Source: Asticcacaulis sp. SL142 (GTDB taxonomy: Bacteria > Pseudomonadota > Alphaproteobacteria > Caulobacterales > Caulobacteraceae). From it: DNA of 64,000 nucleotides. The notes under the pieces were generated by a model, which was not told the DNA's origin, made no database searches, and saw only the letters and a program-made list of their open reading frames with translations. The position numbers and the translations under genes are program-made. This document shows positions 28,253 through 64,000 of this stretch, piece by piece; position 1 is the stretch's first letter, and the number at the start of each line of letters is the position of its first letter. The stretch lies in the NCBI RefSeq assembly GCF_026625745.1, contig NZ_CP113061.1, positions 948,501-1,012,500 of the forward strand. The letters are read 5' to 3'.

Positions 28253-28480
28253 TCAACTATGAAGCTTCTTCAGCATGAGGGTGCGTGGCCCTACGCGAAC
28301 CGCCGTAAGCCCCTGATTGTACAGCAGCTTTTCAAGCGCCTCAGCGACCGTCATGCGTCCGCGCAAAGCCGGAGCCATGCGTTGTTTCAGGATCGCTGAG
28401 TCATAAAGGATATTGAAACCAGACGCCTCGCCAATGGCGCGCACCGCCTCATCGAGCATTTGCGGTGCGATCTTGAATTC
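28253..28480 (-). other. STN domain at the C-terminus of the TpsA exoprotein
   Basis: Residues about 4170-4244. Pattern: FKIAPQMLDEAVRAIGEASG, NILYDSAILKQRMAPALRG, MTVAEALEKLLYNQGLTAVR and TLMLKKL, matching the STN layout seen in the receptor at 7467-10550 (LDTALRLLAQQG, ILFSGDRVAGQRSRAVKG, LTGTGLEVRRV, TLIVV). In FecA-type systems this fold contacts the periplasmic part of FecR. Confidence 0.85.
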
Positions 28481-45981: not shown

Positions 45982-46039
45982 ATCAGCCGTCCTCATCACT
46001 CACTAAAAATTAGAATTCGCGTTGCTCAGAAAATTAGAA

Positions 46040-47671: not shown

Positions 47672-48045
47672 TCAAGAACCCTCGGAGTAGAATTAAATAA
47701 AAAAGATGAGCGTCCTAAATGAAACCCCAACAGGACAACCCCAAACTCCGCTCAATTACAATATTACCTTGAAGTATTTATGACAACTCAAAAATATATT
47801 AAATAAATCAATAGTTTAAAATTAAACACGACAGATAAAATCCATGAATAAATCCATGAAGTGATTAAAAACATACAATGTCAGCAAAGCAGATCCACGC
47901 AAATACACGCAAAACAGATATCGCGATCTCGTCACTTACTTAATGAAACAGAGCCACTTAATGTCGAACATATTAATGACGACGCAGCTTCTGAAAACCG
48001 CACATCGCTCTGATATTTTTTTTGACGGCTAGTCATTCAGACAAC
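47672..48045 (-). promoter_or_regulatory. AT-rich promoter region of the secretion operon
   Basis: About 370 bp of markedly AT-rich DNA without an ORF worth calling, between the terminator of the sigma-FecR operon and tpsB. It is the natural site for the promoter recognised by the neighbouring ECF sigma factor. I cannot name the -35/-10 elements with confidence. A near-duplicate word AATCCATGAA occurs twice around 47840-47860. Confidence 0.5.
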
Positions 48046-48081
48046 AAAAAGCCATATCGACACGCGCGTGCGGATATGGCT
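48046..48081 (-). terminator. Rho-independent terminator after FecR (second copy)
   Basis: On the minus strand AGCCATATC and GATATGGCT form a stem around a GC-rich loop, followed by TTTTTGTTGT. It ends the sigma-FecR transcript and separates it from the secretion operon. Confidence 0.85.
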
Positions 48082-48122
48082 CTAACAATCAGGTAATTTC
48101 GCCAGAAGGCTCCGCTCAACAA

Positions 48123-49103
48123 CTAGCCCGGATTATCGGACAGATTCATCCCGGATTCGGTTTCGGTAAATGTCAGACCGTGAATACCGGCGACAGTCTC
48201 AGCAAACCGGCGGGTTTCATCAACACGAAACACACCACTAAGTCTGGTTCCATCCACCGCCTGAGTATCAAGGTGGATATCTTTTGTGCTGTAGCGATTC
48301 ATTTCCGCGATAGCGGCCCGCAGTGGCGTTTCATCCAGAATAAGCTGACCATTGCGCCAGGCGGTTACGACTTCCAGCCTGGGTCGATCCAGTTCAACGG
48401 ACTGATTGTCGGCTCTTCGGAACCGCTGCCCCGGTGACAGCGAAACCTTGTCAAGGCCATTATCTTTACGGGTAACATCAACTACACCCGACAACAGGGT
48501 AACTTCAACCCGCTCATTATCACGACGCACAACAAAGGACGTCCCCACAGCGCGAATATACTCCTGCGCTGCGGCGACTATAAAAGGGCGATCAGGGTCG
48601 TGAGCCACATCAAAAAGCGCCTCACCTTGAACCATTTCGATCCTGCGCTCGCCCCGACTGTAGCGTACTTTAAAAACAGTATCTGTATTCAGGATGATGC
48701 GGGTACCATCCGCCAACCGGGCAAGCTTTTGCTCGCCCACGGCAGTCTTATAGGTCGGCGCGTGCAGCAGCCAGCCCACCCCAACCGAAGCCATAGCCGC
48801 ACAGGCCGCAATTGCGATGGTCGCAAATTGGCGCCGCGTCACCGCGAAATTTAACTTATGAATCGAAGCGCGCTGGGTATCAGTTTTCCAGTCAGGCGCT
48901 ATCCGCCCAAGTTCATCCCAGATTTGCTGGCTTTCAGTATATGCGGACATGTGATCATCGTTTTCAGCAACCCACCCATCAAGCAGACGTAAGCAATCAC
49001 GGCCGCCGTCATGTTTACGAACCGTCAGTAAAGCTGCCTGAGCTCTTATGCGCAATTTTTCCTCATCCTCTAGTTGAGTTGATGCCCTGTGCCTCTTTAC
49101 CAT
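48123..49103 (-). CDS. FecR-family anti-sigma / sigma regulator (second copy)
   Basis: A 326-residue FecR protein: cytoplasmic N-terminal domain (about 1-85, with a DRLLDGWVAENDDHMSAY-like pattern), a membrane helix (FATIAIAACAAMASVGVGWLL, about 93-113), a periplasmic FecR core (AVGEQKLARLADGTRIILNT, RAVGTSFVVRRDNERVEVTL) and a C-terminal DUF4974-like part (LDETPLRAAIAEMNRYSTKD). It overlaps the sigma gene by 7 bp. No STN-bearing TonB receptor lies nearby inside the island; the only STN domain there is on the exoprotein, which makes that the likely signalling partner. Confidence 0.92.
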   Translation of the reverse strand: MVKRHRASTQLEDEEKLRIRAQAALLTVRKHDGGRDCLRLLDGWVAENDDHMSAYTESQQIWDELGRIAPDWKTDTQRASIHKLNFAVTRRQFATIAIAACAAMASVGVGWLLHAPTYKTAVGEQKLARLADGTRIILNTDTVFKVRYSRGERRIEMVQGEALFDVAHDPDRPFIVAAAQEYIRAVGTSFVVRRDNERVEVTLLSGVVDVTRKDNGLDKVSLSPGQRFRRADNQSVELDRPRLEVVTAWRNGQLILDETPLRAAIAEMNRYSTKDIHLDTQAVDGTRLSGVFRVDETRRFAETVAGIHGLTFTETESGMNLSDNPG

Positions 49104-49579
49104 CCGTCCATCCAGTTCATCAGGAAGAGTATCCCCTTAGCCAGCCGCTTCTCAACTGCGCTCACACTCAGATTATGCCTGTCGGCTATGGAGGCTACAC
49201 TCATGCCTTCCACCCTTTGCGCCCGTAACATCTGCCGCGTCAATGGATCGAGAGCCGCAAAACCGTCATTCAACCTCTCTAGACGCCTACGGGTAGCGTA
49301 AACCTCATCCGGTCGTGGAGATTTATCTACGATTACGAAATCTTCGATCGGACCGGCCACAATACCGGAACGCTTTCGCCGCCTGACCCTGTCAATTGAC
49401 AAATTGATAGCCGTGCGGACAAGGAACCCTTCAGGTTTGCTAACTTCATTTTCCTGACGATAAATTTCCAGACGCTGATACGCATCCTGAATAAGATCGT
49501 CAGCGTCATGAGGGGATACGCCACGCCTGGACAATACCCTTCTCAGATGTCTGATCATGTTTTTTACGGATGAGTCCAT
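49097..49579 (-). CDS. FecI-like ECF sigma factor (second copy)
   Basis: A 160-residue ECF sigma factor with region 2 (HDADDLIQDAYQRLEIYRQ, the DxxQ-type core) and region 4 (LTRQMLRAQRVEGMSVASIA, HNLSVSAVEKRLAKGI). It lacks any membrane segment. It is the first gene of a two-gene operon with FecR; the downstream secretion operon on the same strand is the probable target. It differs clearly from the sigma factor at 6674-7273, so the two systems are not a recent duplication. Confidence 0.92.
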   Translation of the reverse strand: MDSSVKNMIRHLRRVLSRRGVSPHDADDLIQDAYQRLEIYRQENEVSKPEGFLVRTAINLSIDRVRRRKRSGIVAGPIEDFVIVDKSPRPDEVYATRRRLERLNDGFAALDPLTRQMLRAQRVEGMSVASIADRHNLSVSAVEKRLAKGILFLMNWMDGW

Positions 49580-49811
49580 CTGGTTCCCGGATCGAGGCCA
49601 AAAAAACTGGCTTGCCGCTATCCGGCAGAAAAATCACAGGTTTATGTAAACCAAATGACAATTAAAACAGAGACGCCTGAACGCATCAAAACCGTAAAAA
49701 GAATGTGTGATTCGCGAATTGTTTTTATGCAGGACGACGAGATGGTATCGCGCGTTAGCAAACACTTTTAACTTGTAGAACTCCCGTAGGACATGCCGTG
49801 TAAGACTATCG

Positions 49812-50040
49812 AGGTGTTCCTAGAATTGTAGACGCTTTCCTTGTTGCAAAACTTAAACAAGGACAGTTACAGATGAGGATGGGACCCAGGTTTCGTAAGC
49901 GTTTAAAAAGGACGCGGTGATGCAAGTTGTTGTCCGTGGCGATGCGCTCAAAGAGGTCGCTAAGATTGGGAACCGGGACGAAGTCACTTTAACACGTGGC
50001 GCGCTGAGTTTTCGAAGCCCACAAAGATCATGCGCGAAGA
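49812..50040 (+). mobile_element. IS3-family orfA remnant with several frameshifts
   Basis: Reading three frames in turn recovers an IS3-type OrfA: MRMGPRF near 49873, then DAVMQVVVRGDALKEVAK from about 49914, LGTGTKSL near 49970, and TWRAEFSKPTKIMREDDAV to about 50044. At least three small indels break the frame. The upstream ~45 bp resemble those before the remnant at 24400. No orfB or right end is visible. The remaining stretch from 50045 to 50690 holds no gene I can support. Confidence 0.7.
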
Positions 50041-50689
50041 TGACGCAGTGTCCTCGTACTTCGCGGGAGAGTCTCGGTGAAATTCGCCGCGCAACCCGTT
50101 TTAACCGCTACCTTCCACAAGTTCCCGTGCACGGGAGCGTCCCCTCGACAGGGCCGCAGAACCGACAAATCCGCTATCTTGCTTGCCCCGGCCGCAAGGC
50201 CAGAGTGCGCGTGTAGTGCTTGGATTGTCCGTTCAGACACGACCGAAAGCCTGTGCCGAAATGCCGAGCACGTAGTAACGCATGAGCCTGTCGAAAGGAT
50301 GCTGAAATATAACGGAAACTATCTCGTGGACAAATGCGGACCAGGTGAAGTAAAATGACTTGATCATCCCAATTTATACAGAAAAGAACTGCCCGATTAG
50401 TAAAACAAGATAAAAGCAGTGCCTCCGATATCGGCTAAGTCACTGTCTGCACATCGCTTTTTATGGATGTTCGAATTGGCGGCAAGAGGCAATACCGCTT
50501 AACCGATTGAAAGCTCGAATGTTTTTCAGCCTCCCAACCAAAATGGTCATTGTAGGGTCTCTAAAGTAGGCTTGCTCTGCGCGCCCGCCCTGGCCTTGTT
50601 GGGGGCCGGGCGGCCGCTCTAACTTCGGCCGAACGGCGGGTTCGGGGGATGTAAGGGCTATCTCGCATCTTCAGAGGTAACGGTATCTT

Positions 50690-50708
50690 GGCTCCTGACC
50701 AAGGAGCC
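50690..50708 (+). promoter_or_regulatory. Hairpin masking the ribosome-binding site of the HTH gene
   Basis: GGCTCCT and AGGAGCC form perfect 7-bp arms around 5 bases; the right arm contains the AGGAG ribosome-binding site 5 bases before the ATG at 50712. If formed in RNA it would hide the site, or as DNA it may be an operator for the encoded protein. Confidence 0.55.
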
Positions 50709-50711
50709 GAC

Positions 50712-50993
50712 ATGCCTTTCAACGCCGCAGACAAAATCGCATATCGTATTGATGAAGCCGTGAAGGCATCGGGCCTTGGTCGCTCGTTCCTGTATGAGAA
50801 AATGGCTGAGGGTAGATTGCGGTCTGTAAAGGTTGGTGGCCGCCGTCTGATCCTGCGTAGTGACCTGCTCGATTTCCTCAATCAAGGCGGCGAGCCAAAG
50901 CCGTCGCTTCAAGCCCCCTCGCCGTTCGCTCCAGAGGGTAAAGTCGGGTTGCCAGCTTATCAGCTAGAATTGCCGCTCAAGCCCCGTAGATAG
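50712..50993 (+). CDS. Small helix-turn-helix protein, excisionase/AlpA-like
   Basis: 93 residues. The first 60 form a MerR/excisionase-type helix-turn-helix (YRIDEAVKASGLGRSFLYEK, AEGRLRSVKVGGRRLILRSD, LLDFLNQGG), a fold found in Xis and AlpA proteins of integrated elements. The tail is proline-rich and has no known domain. The start at 50712 is decided by AAGGAG 5 bases upstream; an ATG further up would put the ribosome-binding site inside the gene. It stands alone on the plus strand of the island and may control excision, though it is far from the integrase. Confidence 0.8.
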   Translation: MPFNAADKIAYRIDEAVKASGLGRSFLYEKMAEGRLRSVKVGGRRLILRSDLLDFLNQGGEPKPSLQAPSPFAPEGKVGLPAYQLELPLKPRR

Positions 50994-51109
50994 GGCACCA
51001 TGGCCTAATTATTGATCCTCGCCAAGCCAACGCAACGGTACTATTTGAAAGCGGTAGCCCACGCCCGGCTCAGGTGCTAGACTCTGGTATCAACGCTTCG
51101 GGATTCTCT

Positions 51110-51615
51110 ATGCTGACGGATCGGCTTTCTCACTTGCCAGACACCAAACGCCGCGAACTTGAACGAGTGGTGCAGGTGCTGTTCGACGAGTTCGAGGACG
51201 CCACCAAGTCAAAGCTATCCGACAAGAAGAAGCTGGGCCGTATCCTCAAAGTCATCCTGTTCGGCTCTTATGCCCGTGGCGACTGGGTTGAAGACCGACT
51301 GTCGGGTTACCGCTCTGATTATGATCTTTTGATCATCGTCAACAGTCACCACTTCACTGATCTGCACGAATATTGGGCTAAGGCTGACGAGCATTTCATC
51401 CGAGAACTCACTGTCACCCAGCATATCAAGACGCCGGTAAACTTCATCGTTCACAGTCTCGAAGACGTCAACGACCAACTGGCCAAAGGCAGACCCTTCT
51501 TCTCAGACATCGCCCGCGACGGCATCATGCTTTATGAGGCACCGGGCCACCCTCTGGCTAAGTCAAAGCCGCTGACGGATGATGAGATCAAAGCCGAAGC
51601 GCAGGGTTACTTTGA
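51110..51615 (+). pseudogene. Nucleotidyltransferase-domain protein, 3' end lost to a deletion/IS junction
   Basis: About 168 residues of a MNT/polymerase-beta-type nucleotidyltransferase: the signature GSYARGDWVED and YRSDYDLLIIV carry the catalytic GS and DxD. Relatives have a HEPN domain after this region and act in toxin-antitoxin or antiphage modules. Here the natural reading ends at about KAEAQGYFDQW; beyond that base the DNA belongs to a transposase gene read in the next frame, so the C-terminal part is gone. The annotated frame runs on to 51706 with unrelated residues. ATG 51110 is preferred; a GTG at 51074 is possible. Confidence 0.8.
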
Positions 51616-52794
51616 TCAGTGGCTTACTGCTTCGGCATCCGATCTGAGCGTCGGCTGTGCGAAGAGGTTCATCTCAATCTGGCTTATCGCTGGTTCTGTC
51701 GATTAGGCCTGGACGGCGATGTGCCGGATCATTCGACCTTCTCCAAGAATAGACACGGGCGCTTCCGAGATAGCGACCTCTTGCGCGAGCTATTCGAGAT
51801 GACGGTGCAACGTTGTATCGATGAAGGCCTCGTCGGTGGCGACGGCTTTGCCGCCGATGCCAGTTTGATTAAGGTTGACGCCAATAAGCAGCGGTCTGCG
51901 GCCGCAGCCGATGAAGTCGACTGGCAAGGCCTGGCGGCAACACGCCGTTCGGTACAGGAATATCTTGATGTGTTAGATGATACCGCCTGGGGCGCGGCCA
52001 GCGAGACCAAACCGAAGTTCGTGTCAAAGTCTGATCCGGCCGCACAATGGACGGGCGCCATGAAGGGCTTAGCTTTCTTCGCATACGCCACCAACTATCT
52101 GATCGATCTGAAGCATGCCGTCATTGTCGATGTCGAGGCTACACGGGCAATACGACAGGCCGAAGTCGGGGCCGTGCGCACCATGATTGACAGGGTCGAT
52201 GAGCGTTTCGGTCTCTATCCGGAGAGGCCGGCTGCGGACACGGCTTACGGATCAGCCGAGATGCTGGGCTGGCTTGTGTATGAGAAAGGTATCGAACCGC
52301 ACATCCCGGTGTTCGATAAGTCCCAAAGGGAAGACGGTACGTTCAGCCGCGCCGACTTCGTGTACGACCACGAAAACGATCTCTACCGCTGTCCCGGCGG
52401 CAAGGCACTGCGATCGAGCCAGCGAACCCGCGGTCCAACGATCGATGAAGATGGTGTGATACGCTATCGCGCGAGTAAGATGGATTGCAGTGCGTGCGAG
52501 CTAAAACCACGGTGCTGTCCAAATACGCCGATCCGCAAGGTGCCGCGATCTATCTATGAAGGCGCGCGTGACATGGCCAGAGACATCGCCGGAACGGACG
52601 CCTATGTGACATCCAGGCGAGAACGGAAGAAGGTCGAGATGCTGTTTGCTCACCTGAAACGGATTCTAAGGCTCGACCGGCTGCGCTTGCGCGGCCCGAA
52701 TGGTGCCAGAGATGAGTTCCTTCTGGCAGCCACAGCCCAAAACCTGAGAAAACTGGCCAAGGTGCTGCCAATACGGCACCCTCAACCCGCCTGA
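51616..52794 (+). pseudogene. 5'-truncated IS1182/IS5-like DDE transposase
   Basis: About 390 residues from AYCFGIRSERRLCEEVHLNL onward, with a DUF772-like N-terminal part (LAYRWFCRLGLDGDVPDHST), DDE-type acidic residues (DGFAADASLIK, AADTAYGSAEM, RRERKKVEMLFAHLKR) and a cysteine cluster (CSACELKPRCCP). The normal first ~60 residues and the left end of the IS are absent; the gene is joined directly to the nucleotidyltransferase gene. The right end probably lies near 52850-52870, where GACTTTTTCAACA resembles IS terminal repeats. Confidence 0.85.
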
Positions 52795-52941
52795 GAGAGC
52801 GGTCGCCACGCCCGAGCGACAACCCGAATGATATCAAGGCGACTACAAAACGACTTTTTCAACAATATCCGCCAACATCAGAACTAAACACCTAAATTTT
52901 CACCAGTCATTAGCGGCAAATGGCAGCTTTACTTCAAACAC

Positions 52942-53394
52942 CTATTCGTTAAACTGTGAGAGTGCCGCAAAAATCTCTTCGTCCGACAAGCCGCTCAAAT
53001 CCGGGTCGAACAGTTTCAGCGCACCCTTACAAGGATGGGGATGCGGCAAACGAACCGGTTTTGACAAGATCCAGCCATGTAGATCGTAATTGTGCGGAAA
53101 CGGCGAGAAGTCGAGATGGCGCTCCGCCCAAGATGTGAACAATCTCTGGGTCACGAGCCGTATATCGCCGAGGTCGACAAGGCCGATGATTCCGCCCGTA
53201 AACAGATCTCCGAGTCCGAAACGGCTATTTGCCTGTTCATCGATTTTCAACCCCGTGTGCAGCCAGACCGGACCACGATAACTGTCTGTCCAACTGCGCA
53301 GCTCGATGTCCTTACGTCCGGCCGCGATAAGCTCCGCCCACGGCTGGCGAATACTCAATGCGGGTGCCTTGCGAAGCGTTTCGATGGTAACCAT
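52942..53394 (-). CDS. ASCH-domain protein, last gene of the gasdermin/QueC-like operon
   Basis: 150 residues with an ASCH (PUA-like) fold: ALSIRQPWAELIAAGRKDIE, LRSWTDSYRGPVWLHTG and GIIGLVDLGDIRLV are the family hallmarks. ASCH proteins bind RNA or modified nucleotides; E. coli YqfB is an amidohydrolase of N4-acetylcytidine. The start at 53394 (MVTIETL) is supported by GAGGG 7 bases upstream and lies 10 bp after the QueC-like stop, so the gene belongs to the operon. A role in processing a nucleobase-amide is a speculation from this context. Confidence 0.85.
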   Translation of the reverse strand: MVTIETLRKAPALSIRQPWAELIAAGRKDIELRSWTDSYRGPVWLHTGLKIDEQANSRFGLGDLFTGGIIGLVDLGDIRLVTQRLFTSWAERHLDFSPFPHNYDLHGWILSKPVRLPHPHPCKGALKLFDPDLSGLSDEEIFAALSQFNE

Positions 53395-53404
53395 GGCTAT
53401 ACCC

Positions 53405-54685
53405 TCACGGAAACTGCTTGGAAAACTCGGTGGCGAAGCGAGAATAGAGCGACTGGAGCTCATCCCATGTCCCCGTCTCTGGGTCTATGTCGATGGCGTT
53501 CGCGCTCATCGCCCGCCTGAAGGTCGGCCCATCCTGTGTTGCCAACACGATTTCAGCAAAACGTTTCATGGCGTCGAGATTATAGGTGAAGCTCCGCGGA
53601 TCAACGCCGCTGGAGTTGGCTATTTTCGGCGGATGGCTGGGGTCGTAAACATAATCCGTGTCACCGAAAGCCGCTCGCCGCACGAGACAAGGCACGCAAA
53701 TCCCGCAATGCCGACGGGGTGTTTTGTCAATGGCGCCGGAGCCAAAGCGAACAGGCACCCTTACGTAGTGAAAATACCAGCAACTGTCGGTTCCTTTGAG
53801 AAGCGCGTCCGCCTTTCCTGACAAGTTTTGGCGGCACACCTCAACCTCCTCGCCCTTGGTCATGTCCTTGAAGGGGTTTTCAATGGTGAGATTTAGACCG
53901 ATAGCACCCACGAGTTCACCGAACAGGCGGTGCGTCCTGGGGTGGGCATGACGTGTGGTGAAGTAGCTTGCGGCCGGTGTGACCGCCCGCGCCATGACGC
54001 CATTTTCGAACTGGAGCAGCCGATCGGCATCAAAACTGCGCGCGACAATCGCGCCAAAGGTCAGAAAAAGGAACGAACGGTAGGATAAGGCTCCATTTCC
54101 CCGCCGTTCGTTCCGGACCCGCCATACCGCGCGCATCTGAGAGGGCTTTTCGAATCCAAGGGAACTGGCGATATCCTTCTGGATATTGCTGTTCAGCGTG
54201 TAGAAGCTAGCCAGCCGGACCGAACTGGCTTGAGACATCAGTCCGGAAAGCCCACAGGTCGAGTCCATGCCACCGGAATTCAGCACAATGGTTCTCGCCC
54301 TGTCCGTAACGGTTTTGGCTGCGGTTCGTACAGATGCCGTCGATTGGACGAATGATACGCGCCAATCGATGCCCCCCATCCAACGCAAAAGGCTGGCCAC
54401 CTTATCCGCCTGACCTGCCCAGAAAGCCGGGTCGCGCACGGGCAATGTCGCGTCAATAAGCCTTACTCTATTGGACTCGGCTTTCTTGCGCTGATCACGC
54501 TCAAGAAAATGAACGGCTATGGCGATGTCGAGCAGATCACTCTCGCGCTCGCTGATAGGAACGGGTCCAAACGGCCCCGGAATATCGATCTTGATGTCTC
54601 CATCGAGATCAAAGTCGATATCGTAGGTGGGATGACCATTCGCGGAACGCTCGGTCGTTACCGTCGCAAACACCGGTGCCGTCAT
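53405..54685 (-). CDS. QueC-like PP-loop ATPase (QatC / Cap9-like)
   Basis: 426 residues, much longer than housekeeping QueC (about 230). An N-terminal extension of about 130 residues precedes the PP-loop SGGMDST (137-143), where ATP is bound. The C-terminal zinc site is QueC-like: Cys302, then HCGICVPC with Cys327, 330 and 333. QueC makes 7-cyano-7-deazaguanine; long QueC homologues in Qat (QatC) and type IV CBASS (Cap9) are reported to attach a deazaguanine to the N-terminal glycine of a partner. The start follows the TAA of the glycine-rich gene by one base, with GAGGG 6 bases upstream. The Met-Gly partner next door fits the defence role rather than queuosine synthesis. Confidence 0.85.
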   Translation of the reverse strand: MTAPVFATVTTERSANGHPTYDIDFDLDGDIKIDIPGPFGPVPISERESDLLDIAIAVHFLERDQRKKAESNRVRLIDATLPVRDPAFWAGQADKVASLLRWMGGIDWRVSFVQSTASVRTAAKTVTDRARTIVLNSGGMDSTCGLSGLMSQASSVRLASFYTLNSNIQKDIASSLGFEKPSQMRAVWRVRNERRGNGALSYRSFLFLTFGAIVARSFDADRLLQFENGVMARAVTPAASYFTTRHAHPRTHRLFGELVGAIGLNLTIENPFKDMTKGEEVEVCRQNLSGKADALLKGTDSCWYFHYVRVPVRFGSGAIDKTPRRHCGICVPCLVRRAAFGDTDYVYDPSHPPKIANSSGVDPRSFTYNLDAMKRFAEIVLATQDGPTFRRAMSANAIDIDPETGTWDELQSLYSRFATEFSKQFP

Positions 54686-54686
54686 C

Positions 54687-55415
54687 TTAAGCCCTCAACC
54701 GTTTCAGAAACCATTCCGTTTGTTCGGCTTCCCGCGTCGCGCGGGCCAGCACCCGCGCGTCGCCGGCGTCGCCGGATTTTTCGAAGCGCGCGCGTAGCCG
54801 CGCCGCCATGTCGGCGCCTATACTCTTGGCTTCCGCGCGAATGGCGTCCGCTTCGGCCTGGGTGGGAGCCGTGCGCTCCTCACGCAACAAGACGTTCTCA
54901 GTGAGCAGGGAGAAATATCTTTCGAGAGGATTTTGCGCGATGGCCTGATCCACCGAAGTGGACCAATTCGCGCCGTTGCCGCGATCGGTTAGCAGGTCGT
55001 CGTCGAAACCCGTCAACTCCTCGAAATAGTGCGCGAGCGCGGTTCGAGCCGCGCCGACCACCCGTTGATCATATTCATCGCCGATCGAACGGGTGAGGAT
55101 TGCATCGCGCACGTCCTGAAGTGACGCGGAGTGGGCGAGCTGAAGATCATCGCAGATGTTCTTCCAGTTCCCGCCTCGTGCGAGATTAACCGACATCAGT
55201 ACGATTTCCCGCACGATGTCCGGCGCGATCGCGCCGAACTGGCGAAGGAGATAATCCGGCTTCAGTTTGGTGAGCACAAGTTTGGAGATCGCGCGAGCCG
55301 AAGCGCCGGGTTGTGAACCGTAGCTCCCAGAACCACCTCCACCTCCGCCTCCGCCGCCTCGACCGCCGCTGCCGCCACTACCGCCCCCGCCGCCGCCCGC
55401 GCCTGACTGACCCAT
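54687..55415 (-). CDS. Glycine-rich Met-Gly protein, QatB-like in architecture
   Basis: 242 residues. It begins Met-Gly-Gln-Ser-Gly and has about 35 residues of almost pure Gly/Ser, then a mostly helical domain (AISKLVLTKLKPDYLLRQFG, IVLMSVNLARGGNWKNICDD, LAHYFEELTGFDDDLLTDRG) and a charged C-terminal coil. The helical domain is not one I recognise. Removal of Met would expose an N-terminal glycine, the reported target of QueC-like enzymes in Qat and type IV CBASS; QatB proteins have a similar Gly-rich start. ATG 55415 is chosen over TTG 55433 because AAGGGA lies 7 bases upstream. Its ATG shares one base with the stop of the CHAT gene (TAATG). Confidence 0.75.
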   Translation of the reverse strand: MGQSGAGGGGGGSGGSGGRGGGGGGGGGSGSYGSQPGASARAISKLVLTKLKPDYLLRQFGAIAPDIVREIVLMSVNLARGGNWKNICDDLQLAHSASLQDVRDAILTRSIGDEYDQRVVGAARTALAHYFEELTGFDDDLLTDRGNGANWSTSVDQAIAQNPLERYFSLLTENVLLREERTAPTQAEADAIRAEAKSIGADMAARLRARFEKSGDAGDARVLARATREAEQTEWFLKRLRA

Positions 55416-58400
55416 TAACGTATCCCTTCCCAAACGCTGCCCATATCCAATTTCGAGATATCCATTTCCCTCGCCGCCGCGATGGTGCTTAGCCGGGCAC
55501 GGAAATCCTCGCCGGGCCCTGGCTCGCCGAGAATCTCCAAGCCGGCTAGAACGGGCAGCCAGCGGTCCCCTATATCCGAGCCGTCCGTTAAGCCATCCGA
55601 GTGCATCAGACTCGTTTGGGTCTTGCGCATTACCGTGACGGCTTCACTCCGCATGCCGTCGGGCAGCCCTTTCACGAGACGAAGCCTGGAATTGACCAGA
55701 GCACGGGCGGCCCAGGAATGGTTCTCGACGGCTTCAAGCTGTGATTCAATGGCGGCCCAGATCGCGAACACGGTTTCGTCGAAGGGCGCCTTGTCCTCCT
55801 GATCCTTCCAGAAGCGCCGATTACTCGCCAAGGCCAAAACCAACGCGTTGCCGTCCGACCGGGCAATTCGGAGAGCTTGATCGAGATAGGCTACCCCGGC
55901 CTCCGTTTGCCCCATGCGGTCAAGGGCCTTGGATAGCTCATATGTCGTTTCAGCGATAAAGCGACGCGCGGGGGGCGTATTTGCCATTACTTCCAAGGCG
56001 GCCTTTAAATGCTCGAGTGCCGCAGCGGGATCGCTCTCCACATCGTATGCATAGCGGTGGCAGACATCCGCTAAATTTCTCAATGCCGTGGCCTTCAAAT
56101 ACTGCCTTTCATCGAGCTCGTCGCAGGCCGCGATAATCCGCTCGTATTCCGCTTTCGCCACCGCCGCCTTTTTTTGGAAGTAGACCCCGTGGCGGGCAAT
56201 ATCATGCGCCACGATTAACGGCTGCAAAGTTGCCAAAGGATCATCAGGCGCGACTTGAGCATTGGATTCGGCGATCGGCAAGGCGCTCTCCATCCAGCGC
56301 AAGGCCTCGTCATGCTTCGCCGTATCCGGCTGATTTCGCAAGGTCTCCGCGTGGAGTAATGCGAATTCAACCTCCTCGTACGAGGAAAGGCTTGCCGGAA
56401 TGACCCTCGATAGAACATCTTCCGCTCGCCTCGGATATCCCAGTGCCAACTGGGCTCGCGATACCTGCTGTAAGCGCCCAAAATCGAGATGGAGGCAATG
56501 CCTTCGCATGGTCTTGTACATTGCAACGACACGATTGGCCTTTCCAGACCTAGACCAAGCCTCGATCGCCTCCGACGCATAGCGTTGCGCGGTTTCATTG
56601 TCGCCAGCCCCCAGCGCATGGATCGAACATTTCTCAAGGTACGGCGCGCCCGTCCACAAGGGATCGAAACCGGTGCCTTCGAGAAAAGCCAAACAGTGCC
56701 GATGCGCTTGTGTGCGTTCGTCCTCTGATAGGGCGTTCTGGAGGTCAAACGCCAGGGATGCCGCGACCGCAAATCGCCCGCCCGCTCCGATCAAGACCGC
56801 CCGTAGCTTGGAATGAGCATTTTCCAGCCCCAACGGCTTACTAAATGCGTCAATTTGTGATTTCGAGAGCGCGCGATTGAAGACCGCGAGGCTTTTGAGC
56901 ACCAACTCCGTCCCTTCCGGGAGGACGACTGGAGTAGTGACATAGCTGTCCTGTTGCCAGAGACCGCCCTGAATCTCGTCTTGTGACGGGAGGTCAGGTG
57001 AGATCACGATAATCCGACTGCCCCGCTCCGCCGCCTCGGTCAGATGGGTAGTATCGGATAGTCCCCCTTTTGCAATGACGGCTATGGTCAAATCATGCCG
57101 TCCCGTCAATTGCATCCAGGCCTCGAGCCGCCGGTCTTCTCGCTTGGCCAGCGCGAATATGGACGTCAGCCAAGTGGTTTCGCTTAAACGGGCACCGGGA
57201 AAAATCCGCGCCCGCAGGTCTCTCATATTCGCGGCAAAGGCACGCAGGAAGTCATTCGAATCCGCGCCGGGAACCGTTAGGATGAGTAACGGGCGACCAT
57301 CGGTCTTGGCCGCCTGCCGCAAGGTCTTGAGCACTTCGAAATGGTCGTGGCTCAAGGTTTGGTGCCTGATCCAGCAAGGCTGACCGTCAAACCAATGCGG
57401 CTGGTGGGCCGCCACGTCTGGCGCCTCGTCCCATACCGCGCCAGCATTCTCCGTTTCCGCGATGCTCTCGTAACTTAACTTGTCGATCAGTACGGCAAGG
57501 TCTTCACCTTCGGGCCTGGCCCAATTGAGGCGCGGCATCGACGCGCCTCCAACCCATAGAACCGGACTTGGCCACTCGGCCTCGGCGGCGGGTGTAACGT
57601 TATTGGAAGCGTTCGCAAGTTCCGCGCGCGCCGCCGCCAAGGCACGGGCTGGCCCCTGCCCTTCGGCCATATGCCGAAACAGCGTCCGCGCCAGGACGCG
57701 GGAACAGGTATCCTTTACGCGTGTCTGGCAACCGAGCACGCCCTCGATGCCGATCCCGACCATGGCCTCGACAAGCGATGGCAGGTTTTGGTTCGTAGCC
57801 CTCGCTTCCGCCGCGTCCACCACGGCCAGCCCTTCACAGGTCCAAAAAGCGGCCAGGATTGGCAAAGGAGCGAGCCGAGACACGCATCGCGCGATATGCG
57901 CCACCGGCACCCAATCGTCATTGAACCGAAATTCAAATCCTGATCCGGTGGTCCGGCCGTGACCGCTGAAACAAAGAAGGTGTGGCTTGACCTCATCCAG
58001 AACCTGACCAAGATCGCAGGCGTTTATTCGCCTGAACTCAGGTTGTTGAATGCGAGATTTGCCACCGGGCCCGAGGCTGTCCCATGCTTTTCCGAAAGCC
58101 GCCTCTTCCTTGCCGAACTCCAAATCTCCCGAGGATAATTGCCCCCCCTGGACAACCAAGGTTCTCATTGGATCGTCAAGGGTCGAGGGCGAGTAGTTCG
58201 TGGTTCTATTGAGCGAACGGACGACGGCGATCTGATCCAGTGGCGGTCCAATATTTTCGAAGAGGATCAGCTCCCAGGGCAAAACCAGGGGGTTGTAACT
58301 TCCAATGGTCGCGGTGTCGGATGAGATCATCCAACCGCACGGCCGGTTGGCGGCCTCGCCGAGGAGCGCTACGAACCTCTCGTAGGCATTGTCGTTTTGC

Positions 58401-58687
58401 GAGCCACTTGAGGCGACGGTGAAAGATCGCAGAAAATCTTTGTACGTCCCCGCACGTTGGTCGACCGCCTCAAAATCCAGATCCAACGGCAATGGACCCA
58501 AGGCGGAAACAGAATTGGCTGCTCCAACATATCGATAAATTGCATTCCCCGCGCGCAACTGAAGGGATAGCCCTGCGTCATCTCCGCCGATATGTGACGT
58601 CAAGACATGGTCGTCTAGCCTCGCGAGGATATCTGGGTCCGGTAGAGTCATCGTTGCACGCGATTTGGCGAGTCTATTCGTCGACAC
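55415..58687 (-). CDS. CHAT-domain (caspase-like) protease with helical-repeat tail
   Basis: 1090 residues. The N-terminal third is a CHAT peptidase: YNPLVLPWELILFENIG near 131-147, the catalytic His in LLCFSGHGRTTG (His243) and the catalytic Cys in FWTCEGLAVVDAAEA (Cys284), ending before VLWVGGASMPRLNW. A middle region of about 200 residues has no clear family. The C-terminal half is all-helical with TPR-like repeats (RYASEAIEAWSRSGKANRVV, FALLHAETLRNQPDTAKHDEA, KAALEVMANTPPARRFIAET), likely a sensor or scaffold. CHAT proteases activate bacterial gasdermins by clipping the C-terminal peptide. The GTG start at 58687 overlaps the gasdermin gene by 14 bp; ATG 58651 is an alternative without a ribosome-binding site. 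Confidence 0.9.
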   Translation of the reverse strand: MSTNRLAKSRATMTLPDPDILARLDDHVLTSHIGGDDAGLSLQLRAGNAIYRYVGAANSVSALGPLPLDLDFEAVDQRAGTYKDFLRSFTVASSGSQNDNAYERFVALLGEAANRPCGWMISSDTATIGSYNPLVLPWELILFENIGPPLDQIAVVRSLNRTTNYSPSTLDDPMRTLVVQGGQLSSGDLEFGKEEAAFGKAWDSLGPGGKSRIQQPEFRRINACDLGQVLDEVKPHLLCFSGHGRTTGSGFEFRFNDDWVPVAHIARCVSRLAPLPILAAFWTCEGLAVVDAAEARATNQNLPSLVEAMVGIGIEGVLGCQTRVKDTCSRVLARTLFRHMAEGQGPARALAAARAELANASNNVTPAAEAEWPSPVLWVGGASMPRLNWARPEGEDLAVLIDKLSYESIAETENAGAVWDEAPDVAAHQPHWFDGQPCWIRHQTLSHDHFEVLKTLRQAAKTDGRPLLILTVPGADSNDFLRAFAANMRDLRARIFPGARLSETTWLTSIFALAKREDRRLEAWMQLTGRHDLTIAVIAKGGLSDTTHLTEAAERGSRIIVISPDLPSQDEIQGGLWQQDSYVTTPVVLPEGTELVLKSLAVFNRALSKSQIDAFSKPLGLENAHSKLRAVLIGAGGRFAVAASLAFDLQNALSEDERTQAHRHCLAFLEGTGFDPLWTGAPYLEKCSIHALGAGDNETAQRYASEAIEAWSRSGKANRVVAMYKTMRRHCLHLDFGRLQQVSRAQLALGYPRRAEDVLSRVIPASLSSYEEVEFALLHAETLRNQPDTAKHDEALRWMESALPIAESNAQVAPDDPLATLQPLIVAHDIARHGVYFQKKAAVAKAEYERIIAACDELDERQYLKATALRNLADVCHRYAYDVESDPAAALEHLKAALEVMANTPPARRFIAETTYELSKALDRMGQTEAGVAYLDQALRIARSDGNALVLALASNRRFWKDQEDKAPFDETVFAIWAAIESQLEAVENHSWAARALVNSRLRLVKGLPDGMRSEAVTVMRKTQTSLMHSDGLTDGSDIGDRWLPVLAGLEILGEPGPGEDFRARLSTIAAAREMDISKLDMGSVWEGIR

Positions 58688-59438
58688 TCACCCCTAAGAC
58701 AACACCTCGCTCGGGGACGTATTCTTGCGCCCCTCCCTCATCTCTATTGGTTTCTTCTGGATGAAACTCCCAAACGCTATCCTCGTCTTCCTTGGAAAGA
58801 AAACCTGCCTTGTAGGCAAACGCCGCGCGTTGGCCAGGTTCGCCCTTGAAAGAAATCGTTGTTTCACTCGTCAATGAAACTGACCCTTTGGTGCCGATAT
58901 CGATAAAGGTTCCAACCTTGCCCGAAACGTCAGAGGAAAAGGCCATACCATCACTGCGACGCATCAACAATTCGTTGGCGTAGGCGTATTCGTAAGCGAT
59001 ATGAATCCCGCCCTCGTTGACAACGCTTTGCGGGATCGCTCCAAGTTGCAAGGCTTGAATGAGTTTATCAATTTGCGAGACTTCAACGCGCCGATAAGAC
59101 ACATCCGTGAAGGCGAAGCTAAAGCTGTTAGACCCCGCAAACCCCAAGTCCAATTTAGGTAGCGCTTCAATTCCAATACATCTCAATGAATTTTCGAGGA
59201 ATGATGTCGTAGCTTTCACACCTTTCGCGGAAGTGTACTGATAAGCTATATCGGCGAGCTTTCCCTCTTTCATCTCGAATTTGGTTTGCTCGGGGAAATA
59301 GTCCAGAAGAGGGCCGCGCCGTACCAGTCTGCGTAACTTTCGTGAATATGTATAAAGCTCCGGGGGCACGATATTCGTTTGCGGGAGAAAGACCGGCTGG
59401 TAGCCAAGTTCATTTAATTTGCGGACGAGCGCATCCAT
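58674..59438 (-). CDS. Bacterial gasdermin-like pore-forming protein
   Basis: 254 residues, the typical bacterial gasdermin size. The N-terminus LGYQPVFLPQTNIVPPELY matches the first-strand pattern of bacterial gasdermins, and the core has SNSFSFAFTDVSYRRVEV (104-121) and ISFKGEPGQRAAFAYKAGFL (195-214), the FKG..P..FA.KA family hallmark. The last about 35 residues form an acidic tail (WEFHPEETNRDEGGAQEYVP then ERGVVLGVSVDE), the expected autoinhibitory peptide. There is no N-terminal Cys for palmitoylation; the only Cys is residue 87. A strong AGGGGGG site precedes the ATG. The adjacent overlapping CHAT protease is the expected activator. Identification rests on pattern and context, not on a database search. 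Confidence 0.78.
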   Translation of the reverse strand: MDALVRKLNELGYQPVFLPQTNIVPPELYTYSRKLRRLVRRGPLLDYFPEQTKFEMKEGKLADIAYQYTSAKGVKATTSFLENSLRCIGIEALPKLDLGFAGSNSFSFAFTDVSYRRVEVSQIDKLIQALQLGAIPQSVVNEGGIHIAYEYAYANELLMRRSDGMAFSSDVSGKVGTFIDIGTKGSVSLTSETTISFKGEPGQRAAFAYKAGFLSKEDEDSVWEFHPEETNRDEGGAQEYVPERGVVLGVSVDE

Positions 59439-59607
59439 TTTTGTCCCCCCTGGCCGTAGCCGATCTGTCAGCGATTCCCATAAAATGATCGTTCAAATAT
59501 GCACGAATACCGAAAATCGTCCACCCAGAGTTGATGACATTTTCCCCGAATTCAGTTGACAACAAAGGGTTGTCGGAAGAACGCGCGGGTTCGATCTTGG
59601 GCGACGC

Positions 59608-59730
59608 CTATGAATCTACCAAAATTTTGACCGCTAGGAACAGCCCGGCAGACAGAACGACGAGGCCCAGGAGCTGATAGGTCGTCGGGAAGACGCCAGA
59701 GAGCGGGATGCTCACGAGAATCGCCACGCC
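59608..59730 (-). pseudogene. EamA/DMT transporter 3' remnant
   Basis: The last about 38 residues of a minus-strand frame (AILVSIPLSGVFPTTYQLLG, LVVLSAGLFLAVKILVDS) resemble the final two membrane helices of an EamA-type drug/metabolite transporter. Residues upstream in the frame are not transporter-like, so only a fragment remains next to eroded DNA. Confidence 0.45.
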
Positions 59731-60223
59731 CCGCTCCAGGTCGGGAAAAATCGAGGCACGCGCCGAAGATTTTAAGGATGCGGCTGCTCGCCTAGGCGTG
59801 CCCCGGCAGCAATACCTGGAAAAATCCGCGCGCCTGCTTAGGCTCAAATCCGACTTTTCAAGGACGATAAGAGGCTTCTGCGCGACTTTCAGACGGTCTT
59901 TCGTCGCTATCTGACGAGTATCGGATTCAATTCCTTTGAAACCTCGGCCTTACTGATCGACGAATACACATTCCTGCGACGCGTCACCATCAACAGTGTA
60001 GACCAAAGAAAGCGCATGCGTGCCGATTTCGGTAGCTTGGCCAGTGCCTGTATCCGCAACATCATCGCATTCACCTTGGTACCGCACGCCTGCAGGGAGA
60101 ATTCTACGTACAGCAAGCATACGAATGTTTCTATATTCGACGAGCCGCTACAGCAGAATATAAATCGCCAGGATTACCTTGAGATATTCTATTGTGTGGC
60201 CGAGGTGACCAAGGGCGGTGGCT
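59720..60223 (+). pseudogene. Degraded ORF of unknown function at the right end of the island
   Basis: Two plus-strand frames look like one broken gene: RAEDFKDAAARLGVPRQQYL in one frame, and after a shift near 59858 KDDKRLLRDFQTVFRRYLTS then TSALLIDEYTFLRRVTINSV to a stop at 60223. I do not recognise the family. From 60224 to 60510 nothing is callable. Confidence 0.3.
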
Positions 60224-60511
60224 AGGTAATCATCGCCGCTACTGACGAATTCCACGACCCGCGTGCCCGCGCCCGTATGCTTGGGATGACAGTCATTGAC
60301 TTCCAAGATCGATACGTCTTGCAATGATAACAACGCGTTTCCGAGTTTGAAGACCTGGCACCGGACCTGCCGACGATGAGGCGGCAGCACCGTTAACACG
60401 TCCGGTTTTTGCTCTCGCTACAAGTGTGTTGATGTCGCCTTAGGGCCAACTGCGGCCGGTTACCCCTCCACCTTTATCCACACATTTCCGTGAGTGTGTT
60501 TTGTGTTCGGG

Positions 60512-60531: not shown

Positions 60532-60544
60532 GAGGTGTTGAGCG

Positions 60545-60574
60545 CACACAAAGAAGCCGCCCGTGAGGGCGGCT
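60545..60574 (-). terminator. Terminator for tRNA-fMet, carried on the island side
   Basis: On the minus strand AGCCGCCC and GGGCGGCT form a perfect 8-bp stem with loop TCAC, followed by TCTTTGTG. It lies 28 bp beyond the tRNA 3' end, inside the island, and appears to replace the ancestral terminator now stranded at 24520-24543. Confidence 0.75.
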
Positions 60575-60594
60575 ATCTTATTGAAGTATCTACC

Positions 60595-60678
<84 letters not shown>

Positions 60679-60747
60679 ACAGGGATATCGGACAAAAGTC
60701 CTTCGGGCATTCGCCCTCAGTGTACATTTTGTCCGGGTCTGGACGGT

Positions 60748-60784
60748 GAAGCTAAATCTCGAAGCAGTTGTTCGATTTAGCTTC
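60748..60784 (-). other. Perfect 11-bp hairpin in the 5S-tRNA spacer
   Basis: GAAGCTAAATC and GATTTAGCTTC pair perfectly. Together with the stem CGGACAAAA / TTTTGTCCG at 60689-60735 it probably marks RNase processing sites of the rRNA precursor. Confidence 0.5.
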
Positions 60785-60825
60785 GCATTTTATCTGGGGA
60801 ACGCTTGAGGCGCGTCCCAGATATT

Positions 60826-60863
60826 AAAAAAGACCGGCAGCTTTGAGTGCCGACCGGTCTTTT
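60826..60863 (-). terminator. Terminator-like hairpin between 5S rRNA and tRNA-fMet
   Basis: AAAAAGACCGG and CCGGTCTTTT form a stem flanked by A and T tracts on both sides, just downstream of 5S. If active it would cut off most tRNA-fMet transcription from the rRNA promoters, so the tRNA may need read-through or a promoter in the 150-bp spacer. Confidence 0.7.
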
Positions 60864-60921
60864 AAGGTTTGTAATGAAGGGTATTCACTCTGGTGAGTGA
60901 TCCAACTCTGTAATTGATAGA

Positions 60922-61035
60922 CCTGGCGACGACCTACTCTCCCGCGCCTTAAGACGAAGTACCATCGGCCCTGGAGGGCTTAACGACCGAGTTCGGAATG
61001 GGATCGGGTGGGGACCTTCCGGCATAGCCACCAGG
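60922..61035 (-). rRNA. 5S ribosomal RNA
   Basis: About 114 nt. The ends CCTGG and CCAGG pair, and the interior has the conserved CCGAACTCGG and GGGAGAGTAGG words of 5S rRNA. Flanking inverted repeats TCTGTAATTGAT / ATCAATTACAGA extend the processing stem. Ends are approximate to a few bases. Confidence 0.95.
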
Positions 61036-61069
61036 TCAATCAATTACAGAGCGAAGACATTATCTATAT

Positions 61070-61111
61070 CACTTAAAAGTCCCTCGCTTACGCTCAGTGT
61101 ACTTTTAAGTG
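61070..61111 (-). other. Hairpin in the 23S-5S spacer
   Basis: CACTTAAAAGT and ACTTTTAAGTG form an 11-bp stem. The loop shares the words AGTCC, TCG and CTCAGTGTAC with the loop of the stem at 60689-60735 after 5S, indicating a duplicated processing element. The rest of the 185-nt spacer holds nothing else I can name. Confidence 0.5.
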
Positions 61112-61220
61112 GGCCAACAACGGCAAGCCCGCTCTCGAAGCGGTTCTTCGAGCGATCTTGGCATTATTGAGATGACATTGTTTGAACGACTTAGGTGTTG
61201 AACACCATAAATTTTGTAGA

Positions 61221-64000
<2,780 letters not shown>

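Follow-up and report, generated by a model that had tools for sequence, protein, structure and literature searches.

A gasdermin, a CHAT protease and a QatBC-like pair in one Asticcacaulis operon: a conserved gene module with a predicted role in anti-phage defence

What might an operon do that places a predicted pore-forming protein and its likely protease beside an enzyme of the QueC family? The question is raised by the stretch of DNA analyzed here (the window), 64,000 nucleotides of Asticcacaulis sp. SL142 that correspond to positions 948,501 to 1,012,500 of the forward strand of NZ_CP113061.1. At 52942-59438 (all coordinates are those of the window), five open reading frames (ORFs) on the minus strand encode a bacterial gasdermin (bGSDM), a CHAT protease, a Gly-rich QatB-like protein, a QatC-like enzyme, and an ASCH protein. 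We found that this gene set is a real, conserved, and apparently undescribed module built from known parts. Its last four genes recur together, mostly behind other membrane proteins, and a predicted anti-phage suicide system is therefore likely, with a probability that we put at roughly 0.6. In such a system, the QatBC-like pair and the ASCH protein would control the CHAT/TPR protease, which in turn would cut the gasdermin. The features of the operon are as follows.

58674-59438, minus strand: gene 1, bacterial gasdermin, 254 aa (PADLOC bGSDM, NCBIfam prok_gasdermin)
55415-58687, minus strand: gene 2, CHAT protease, 1090 aa, GTG start (Pfam CHAT and TPR_12)
57575-58015, minus strand: CHAT core of gene 2, residues 225-371 (Pfam match)
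54687-55415, minus strand: gene 3, QatB-like Gly-rich protein, 242 aa (predicted fold)
55308-55415, minus strand: Gly-rich N-terminal tail of gene 3, residues 1-36, putative modification acceptor (pLDDT and motif)
53405-54685, minus strand: gene 4, QatC-like QueC-family enzyme, 426 aa (PADLOC QatC, Pfam QueC)
52942-53394, minus strand: gene 5, ASCH protein, 150 aa (Pfam ASCH)

From gene 1 to gene 5, the junctions are a 14-base overlap, a 1-base overlap, a 1-base gap, and a 10-base gap. The original prediction, made from the letters of this DNA, had given the same five packed minus-strand genes with the same four spacings, and the layout was reproduced exactly. The five genes form one operon; a longer alternative frame of gene 5 starts at 53463.

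Families of the five proteins

The five proteins had originally been called a gasdermin, a CHAT protease with His243 and Cys284 as its dyad, a Met-Gly protein acting as partner of a QueC-type enzyme, that enzyme itself with its cysteine set, and an ASCH protein, and each of these calls agreed with the results below. The first gene product matched the PADLOC bGSDM profile (PDLC02986) at E 8.7e-36, residues 2-247 covering positions 4-247 of 257, and NCBIfam prok_gasdermin at E 2.9e-26 and 92.5 bits, below the equivalog cut-off of 100. It is thus a predicted pore-forming effector of the bacterial gasdermin type, and the adjacent caspase-like protease gene is the CHAT gene that overlaps it. A short C-terminal tail keeps bacterial gasdermins closed until a neighboring caspase-like protease cuts them, after a Leu or Arg that lies some 20 residues before the C-terminus (PMC9612521, PMC9079055). 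Alignment of 116 collected gasdermin proteins, the window's own included, revealed a conserved C-terminal tail, in which Arg232, 22 residues from the end, is one candidate cleavage site; the homologous position holds Arg in 55/116 proteins and Lys in 27/116. An N-terminal Cys for palmitoylation is a feature of most, not all, bGSDMs; residues 1-20 of the window's protein contain none, and a Cys was present there in 4/116 homologues. Comparison of the gasdermin with chains of the Protein Data Bank (PDB) by phmmer gave one match only, at chance level, and the plasmid collection held no match to it.

The second gene encodes a CHAT protease with a TPR tail, its product passing the Pfam cut-offs for both CHAT (E 3.2e-8, 33.8 bits, cut-off 24) and TPR_12 (E 1.7e-9). 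His243 is encoded at 57961-57959, in FSGHG, and Cys284 at 57838-57836, in FWTCE. Among the 11 full-length CHAT proteins of the family described in the next section, Cys284 was kept in all and His243 in 10; in the remaining one (L005:6048-9179), Ile replaces the catalytic His, the Cys is kept, and the operon is otherwise complete. Six of these 11 proteins passed the Pfam CHAT cut-off (window, L006, L009, L067, L068, and L126), and the other five are related by phmmer and alignment. Identity to the window's protein was 18-23% across the family loci.

An AlphaFold model of gene 2 built from six sequences reached a mean predicted local distance difference test score (pLDDT) of 63.4. When this model was submitted to Foldseek, the first row was the STAND-TPR protein 6mfv (E 6.1e-8, template modeling score only 0.20), and the SAVED-CHAT protease 8tl0 was also found (E 1.5e-5, root-mean-square deviation 4.0 over 205 columns). 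The C-terminal part is a TPR superhelix. A STAND-like middle is only a low-confidence lead from the model, and a winged-helix-like segment is likewise of low confidence. Searching PDB chains with the CHAT protein by phmmer yielded three matches, all at chance level, and the sole match in the plasmid collection was the AR10 plasmid, which was already in the set. A second, much stronger CHAT-domain gene lies elsewhere in the same genome (G000:C1:1682505-1683077, L001; Pfam E 1.0e-38), within an 880-aa frame.

The third protein, which begins MGQSGAGGGGGG, combines a Met-Gly start and a poly-Gly tail with a body that is all-helical in the predicted model. No family match was found for it in Pfam, PADLOC, or NCBIfam; its single row in PHROGs (0.0013) was of low complexity and confined to the Gly-rich stretch, and among PDB chains, of which many were engineered fusions, it was mainly the poly-Gly tail that found matches. 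The predicted fold matched crystallized QatB with a Foldseek probability of 1.00, the other listed rows reaching at most 0.23, and gene 3 is thereby predicted to encode a QatB-like protein. Hence, going by the models, a QatB-fold partner gene lies directly upstream of the QatC-like gene. Residues 1-36 have a pLDDT below 50 and are predicted to be disordered. A Met-Gly start and a Gly-rich tail were present in 19/19 family rows of the QatB-like protein, and close homologues share MG[QT]SGAG followed by Gly/Ser. The exact MGTS start was found in 6/19 family rows versus 13/14 canonical QatB rows, and the window has MGQS. Identity to the window's protein was 18-25% at the family loci.

For the fourth protein, QatC was the nearest family. 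It matched PADLOC QatC at E 1.6e-37, NCBIfam QatC with 149.3 bits (below the equivalog cut-off of 280), and Pfam QueC over its cut-off at E 6.6e-6. A profile made from 32 relatives ranked the solved QatC structures 9vlk (2.2e-42) and 9zee (1.3e-37) above QueC 3bl5 (5.6e-6). The SGGxDS loop (SGGMDS), HP, P(x)4TK, and CGxCxxCxxRR (CGICVPCLVRR) are all kept, a set that belongs to the published QatC motif list (PMC13329287). A canonical QueC role was rejected, the genome having its own QueC at C1:554679-555347 (E 2.5e-64); the genome scan that located this gene did not list gene 4, though hmmscan gives it 6.6e-6. Since the genome carries both this canonical QueC and a QueD-family gene, 7-carboxy-7-deazaguanine is plausibly available in the host.

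One position sets the family apart. Residues 244-246 of gene 4 are T-R-H, and T-x-H was found in 41/41 family rows, whereas T-R-T precedes HP in 18/20 other QatC-like rows, the remaining two having neither form. For QatC, T278/T280 are reported to stand invariably where QueC and Cap9 have the Tyr/Asp that bind 7-deazaguanine, and defence is reported to be lost when both threonines are mutated (PMC13279940); we equated T278/T280 with T-R-T through the adjacent HP motif, not by superposition. Because T-x-H stands where QatC has T-x-T, this QatC-like family probably has a third kind of substrate pocket. Other departures were seen among the QatC-like proteins collected. Four of them (L103, L112, L114, and L116) are 617-660 aa long, which exceeds the size of canonical QatC, with a CGxCxQC variant, T-R-T, and perhaps an extra domain, and showed no QatB neighbor by phmmer with one canonical QatB. 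Two more (L111 and L119; 458-461 aa) have SDGMDS/SEGMDS loops and D-Y-R-N-H-P in place of T-R-T-x-H-P, and represent another divergent branch of the QueC family.

The fifth protein passed the Pfam ASCH cut-off (E 2e-6, 28.9 bits, cut-off 21.2), and its family profile matched the ASCH domain of Activating signal cointegrator 1 (2e5o) at 1.4e-14. It is predicted to bind nucleic acids or nucleobases. With 34-46% identity to 10 aligned relatives (L008 in, L005 out), it is the best conserved protein beside QatC, against the lower figures given above for the QatB-like and CHAT proteins. Gene 5 also matched phrog_3193, a phage family of unknown function, at 1.1e-27, far better than it matched Pfam ASCH; close ASCH relatives thus occur in phages.

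A conserved module with an exchanged first gene

A QatC-profile scan of genome contigs returned 7 loci, and the plasmid collection gave two further near relatives. When searches were then centered on those genomes, family loci also came up in Mesorhizobium G1060, Bradyrhizobium G1184, and Acidobacteriaceae G1379. Eleven loci were in full view (window, L004, L005, L006, L007, L009, L067, L068, L102, L125, and L126). Left out of this count were L008, which starts inside the QatB gene, L010 (Alloprevotella), a weak match, and some metagenome contigs. The QatB-like genes were recognized by phmmer or, in L067, by the Met-Gly tail and position.

The order CHAT-family protein, QatB-like protein, QatC-like enzyme, and ASCH protein was kept in 11/11 of these loci, which span two phyla, and the ASCH gene is a core gene of the module and not an accessory one. 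Junctions ranged from a 22-base overlap to a 70-base gap in the seven loci measured, and the CHAT and QatB genes overlapped or abutted in 10/11 loci, with a 4-base gap in L126. The first gene varied: it was a gasdermin in the window, a small membrane protein in 8 loci, and not recognized in 2.

First gene a 106-aa protein: L004, L005, L102
First gene a 105-109-aa protein: L006, L009
First gene a 151-153-aa protein: L007, L067, L125
No first gene recognized: L068 (IS110 transposases in its place), L126

At least one 19-residue stretch with a mean hydropathy of at least 1.6 was present in 7/7 of the small first proteins tested, and the eighth (L125) is homologous to that of L007 at 1e-82. Between the three kinds there is no convincing alignment, and no family cut-off was reached by those scanned (three in Pfam, six in PADLOC). 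First genes that appear to be of membrane type throughout are the pattern expected of swappable killers. The five-gene order of the original prediction was therefore conserved for the last four genes and not for the first, and the idea that the gasdermin is a constant component was rejected, most relatives carrying small membrane proteins instead.

The link between gasdermin and QatC was nonetheless found elsewhere. Their co-location was read from equal sizes of the longest contig, using 61 QatC-like proteins (60 with a size) and the 116 gasdermins, and four contigs were shared by the two sets: the window's, a metagenome contig of 6,849 bases, one of 332,058 bases from R. leguminosarum, and one of 6,611,049 from Mesorhizobium. 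The R. leguminosarum locus tags, HFO26_14565 for the gasdermin and HFO26_14550 for QatC, would leave room for two genes between them if tags step by five. These four QatCs are among nine with at least 63% identity, which form one clade with 100/99 support. For the other five, the contigs measure 1.8-15 kb, four being shorter than 4 kb, and no gasdermin of equal contig size was listed; these contigs may be truncated or carry another first gene. In the neighborhood survey, the co-occurrence of CHAT with the QueC-like and Gly-rich pair thus stood as foreseen, and the gasdermin link proved clade-specific.

In a midpoint-rooted QatC tree of 57 rows (six long or odd rows omitted, 28 rows unlabelled), 43 family rows split from 14 sampled canonical QatC rows at 100/100. 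The gasdermin-linked rows and those with the first and second kinds of small protein each need one change on the tree, and the truncated L008 is all that interrupts the third kind. We infer that the first gene has been exchanged between lineages of one module.

To compare the family with other QatC loci, we scanned 385 genomes sampled from the class and 347 from one order at E 1e-20 or better, which gave 23 other loci. Within 1.5 kb, phmmer found no homologue of CHAT, ASCH, or gasdermin at any of the 23, whereas CHAT and ASCH were found within that distance in 5/5 family loci treated alike. Extending the flanks to about 8 kb each side, contig ends permitting, left 0/19 with such homologues, four of the 23 being absent from this comparison. 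Likewise, when the window's proteins were compared by phmmer with 56 QatC-like loci on viral contigs, no homologue of CHAT, QatB, ASCH, or gasdermin was found.

Family members, counted at E 1e-60 or better (1e-30 with a single sequence for Mesorhizobium) and with the center genomes included, occurred in 3/146 Mesorhizobium, 2/195 Bradyrhizobium, and 3/200 Acidobacteriaceae genomes, and in 1/170 of the family of L004's genome. Two of the family loci, L067 and L068, are plasmid-borne, and this rare, scattered, cross-phylum occurrence fits defence cargo. A bGSDM was found in 1/349 genomes of the window's phylum, its own; because bGSDMs are so rare, chance linkage is unlikely.

These data bear on whether the operon is simply two independent neighbors, a gasdermin-CHAT suicide pair beside an uncoupled QatBC-ASCH system. 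Gasdermin-protease pairs have been described in operons for which the legend lists no QueC-like gene (PMC9612521), and QatBC alone defends against some phages (PMC13279940). However, the run of CHAT, QatB, QatC, and ASCH is unbroken and unchanged in order in all full-view loci of both phyla, the CHAT-QatB junction is as tight as described above, and the QatCs form one clade; we regard such independence as improbable.

Proposed mechanism and competing explanations

The module pairs an upstream QatBC-type core with a downstream pair for whose output there is good precedent. For the core, published work on relatives provides a guide: QatBC alone resists some phages, and QatB needs both Gly2 and the QatC active site (PMC13279940). 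Cap9 attaches 7-deazaguanine to its partner's N-terminus, the end bound by Cap10 (PMC11996544); Gly2 is the Cap9 target residue (PMC13279940).

By analogy with Cap9 and QatBC, the QatC-like enzyme would bind the QatB-like protein and modify the Gly exposed by removal of Met1 with a nucleobase-type group, which could be 7-deazaguanine or a different carboxylate. The ASCH protein, whose fold is of a base-binding type, might then read or guard the tagged end, a step that we propose with less assurance than the others. An infection cue could be sensed by the TPR/STAND-like part of the protease, directly or via the tagged QatB-like protein, and this would activate the His243/Cys284 dyad. As in other bacterial gasdermins, CHAT would then cut the product of the first gene, here the C-terminal tail of the gasdermin and elsewhere the small membrane protein, and the freed effector would permeabilize the membrane before phages mature.

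A more ambitious version of this scheme, which we hold tentatively and as the less probable claim, would make the module a new immune class, a tag-licensed death complex. A QatC-type enzyme with a T-x-H pocket of its own would put a base-like tag on the poly-Gly end of a QatB-type adaptor, ASCH would read the tag in the place of Cap10 in type IV CBASS, and the tagged adaptor would gate a CHAT/STAND-like/TPR protease that would fire the membrane killer present in a given operon, in this lineage a gasdermin.

The Gly-rich tail of the QatB-like protein invites another explanation, in which the tail is itself a substrate or pseudosubstrate of CHAT. The unmodified tail would fill the active site, and a QatC-dependent modification, or its loss in infection, would free the protease, such that QatBC would be a built-in inhibitor and not a sensor. 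Every family row has the Met-Gly, Gly-rich tail, for which disorder is predicted in the window's protein, and the QatB-like gene overlaps or directly adjoins the CHAT gene in 10/11 loci. Moreover, bGSDM cleavage needs Leu and an adjacent Gly (PMC9612521), and the authors who described Canu propose that caspases recognize conserved glycines in gating loops (PMC12799240). However, the tail of canonical QatB is disordered too, though its operon has no protease (PMC13279940), which argues that the QatB tail has a role of its own. An inhibitory tail seems unlikely to us, if less so than two uncoupled neighbors, and we favor the anti-phage suicide system outlined above.

Flanking genes, known systems, and meaning

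The operon is chromosomal, and the features that flank it are the following.

50688-50993: AlpA/HTH_17-like gene (profile match)
51074-51706, plus strand: nucleotidyltransferase-like ORF, 210 aa (NTP_transf_2 6.4e-7; PADLOC candidate family PDC-S09 2e-8)
51619-52794, plus strand, opposite to the operon: transposase gene, ending 147 bases from the ASCH stop
60605-64000, minus strand: 23S rRNA (cut by the window end), 5S rRNA, and tRNA-Met, upstream of the operon on the same strand

The nucleotidyltransferase-like ORF is perhaps truncated, since the transposase ORF overlaps its 3' end; its match to SMODS (E 0.041) was below the cut-off. The original prediction had placed the operon at one end of a mobile island, a claim that is weakly supported. 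Transposase and AlpA/HTH_17-like genes lie on one side and 23S, 5S, and tRNA genes on the other, but no integrase was recognized among the genes scanned there. An island bounded by tRNA repeats was rejected, there being no exact match of at least 14 bases from the tRNA end (60541-60680) within 45000-60500. At 28253-40987 (minus strand), a 4244-aa ORF lies near ShlB-type secretion, TonB, ExbB-like, porin, FecR, and sigma-70-type genes, and is likely a two-partner-secreted giant protein locus.

The surroundings touch on two further explanations. The operon could be a decayed or non-working copy carried with a transposon-bearing stretch, as the nearby opposite-strand transposase might suggest, together with the lack of the gasdermin in the window's relatives (found in 1/198 genomes, its own). 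However, all five reading frames are intact, the catalytic residues are conserved, and the spacing is tight, which makes decay very improbable. Alternatively, it could serve controlled cell lysis or competition, for example the release of proteins or gene transfer agents, and not anti-phage defence. Release of the Caulobacter gene transfer agent is controlled by a CARD-NLR-like system related to gasdermin defence (PMC13236601), and the window's operon is chromosomal and adjoins rRNA genes. On the other hand, the sporadic, cross-phylum, and partly plasmid-borne distribution and the kinship with QatC point to defence cargo, and a lysis device thus appears improbable, though not to the same degree as a decayed copy.

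The module resembles several known systems without coinciding with any. As in qatABCD, a QatC-like enzyme directly follows a predicted QatB-fold protein with a Met-Gly tail, and the four QatC motifs are kept. In contrast to qatABCD, neither qatA (KAP ATPase) nor qatD (TatD nuclease) is among the five genes, and a CHAT protease, a membrane effector, and ASCH are added; the flank at 50688-52794 holds helix-turn-helix, nucleotidyltransferase, and transposase genes. The poly-Gly tail is without Pro-x-Trp, T-x-H replaces T-x-T, and the QatC is below the NCBIfam cut-off in a separate clade. Filing the operon as qatABCD was rejected on these grounds: no qatA or qatD, the QatC cut-off, the clade, and T-x-H.

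Type IV CBASS (cyclic-oligonucleotide-based antiphage signaling system) also has a QueC-family enzyme adjoining a Met-Gly protein that could be tagged, and a second, possibly base-binding protein, Cap10 there and ASCH here. However, no CD-NTase and no Cap10-type tRNA transglycosylase are among the five genes, and the enzyme here is QatC-type with 426 aa, not of the small Cap9 type. Filing as type IV CBASS was accordingly rejected, with neither a CD-NTase nor a small Cap9-type QueC among the five genes. The absence of a CD-NTase, a QatA ATPase, and a TatD nuclease, noted originally, was upheld by Pfam and PADLOC, which recognized none of them among the five genes. With bGSDM systems, the module shares the activation pair known from publications, in which a bGSDM gene overlaps one for a caspase-like (CHAT) protease; here, however, the gasdermin is one of at least 4 interchangeable first genes, and none of the literature excerpts searched places QatBC or ASCH together with a gasdermin in one operon. 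Canu and other protease-activated pro-effector systems likewise have a caspase-family protease, sometimes with TPRs, beside a latent effector that it cuts, but the effector here is of membrane type, not a nuclease, and a QatBC-like core and ASCH are added.

The combination had originally been put forward as one not known as a described system. This held within the open-licence literature searched, where no paper was found to contain both QatC and gasdermin and none to describe this operon, a prior description elsewhere being possible. PMC13329287 and PMC13279940 mention neither "gasdermin" nor "CHAT", and PMC10952713, which mentions gasdermin, QueC, and CHAT, does not describe this operon in the excerpts available.

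About a third only of QatC-cluster genes lie near qatA or qatD (PMC13329287), and the module may be part of the reason for that figure. Here, the same kind of core is encoded beside a recognizable protease and pore protein, and the missing downstream steps are therefore directly testable. If the proposed mechanism is true, the module would be, within the literature searched, the first link of base-type protein tagging to caspase-like/gasdermin cell death, and would represent a defence core with a swapped killer, in which the protease, adaptor, tagging enzyme, and ASCH protein stay fixed.

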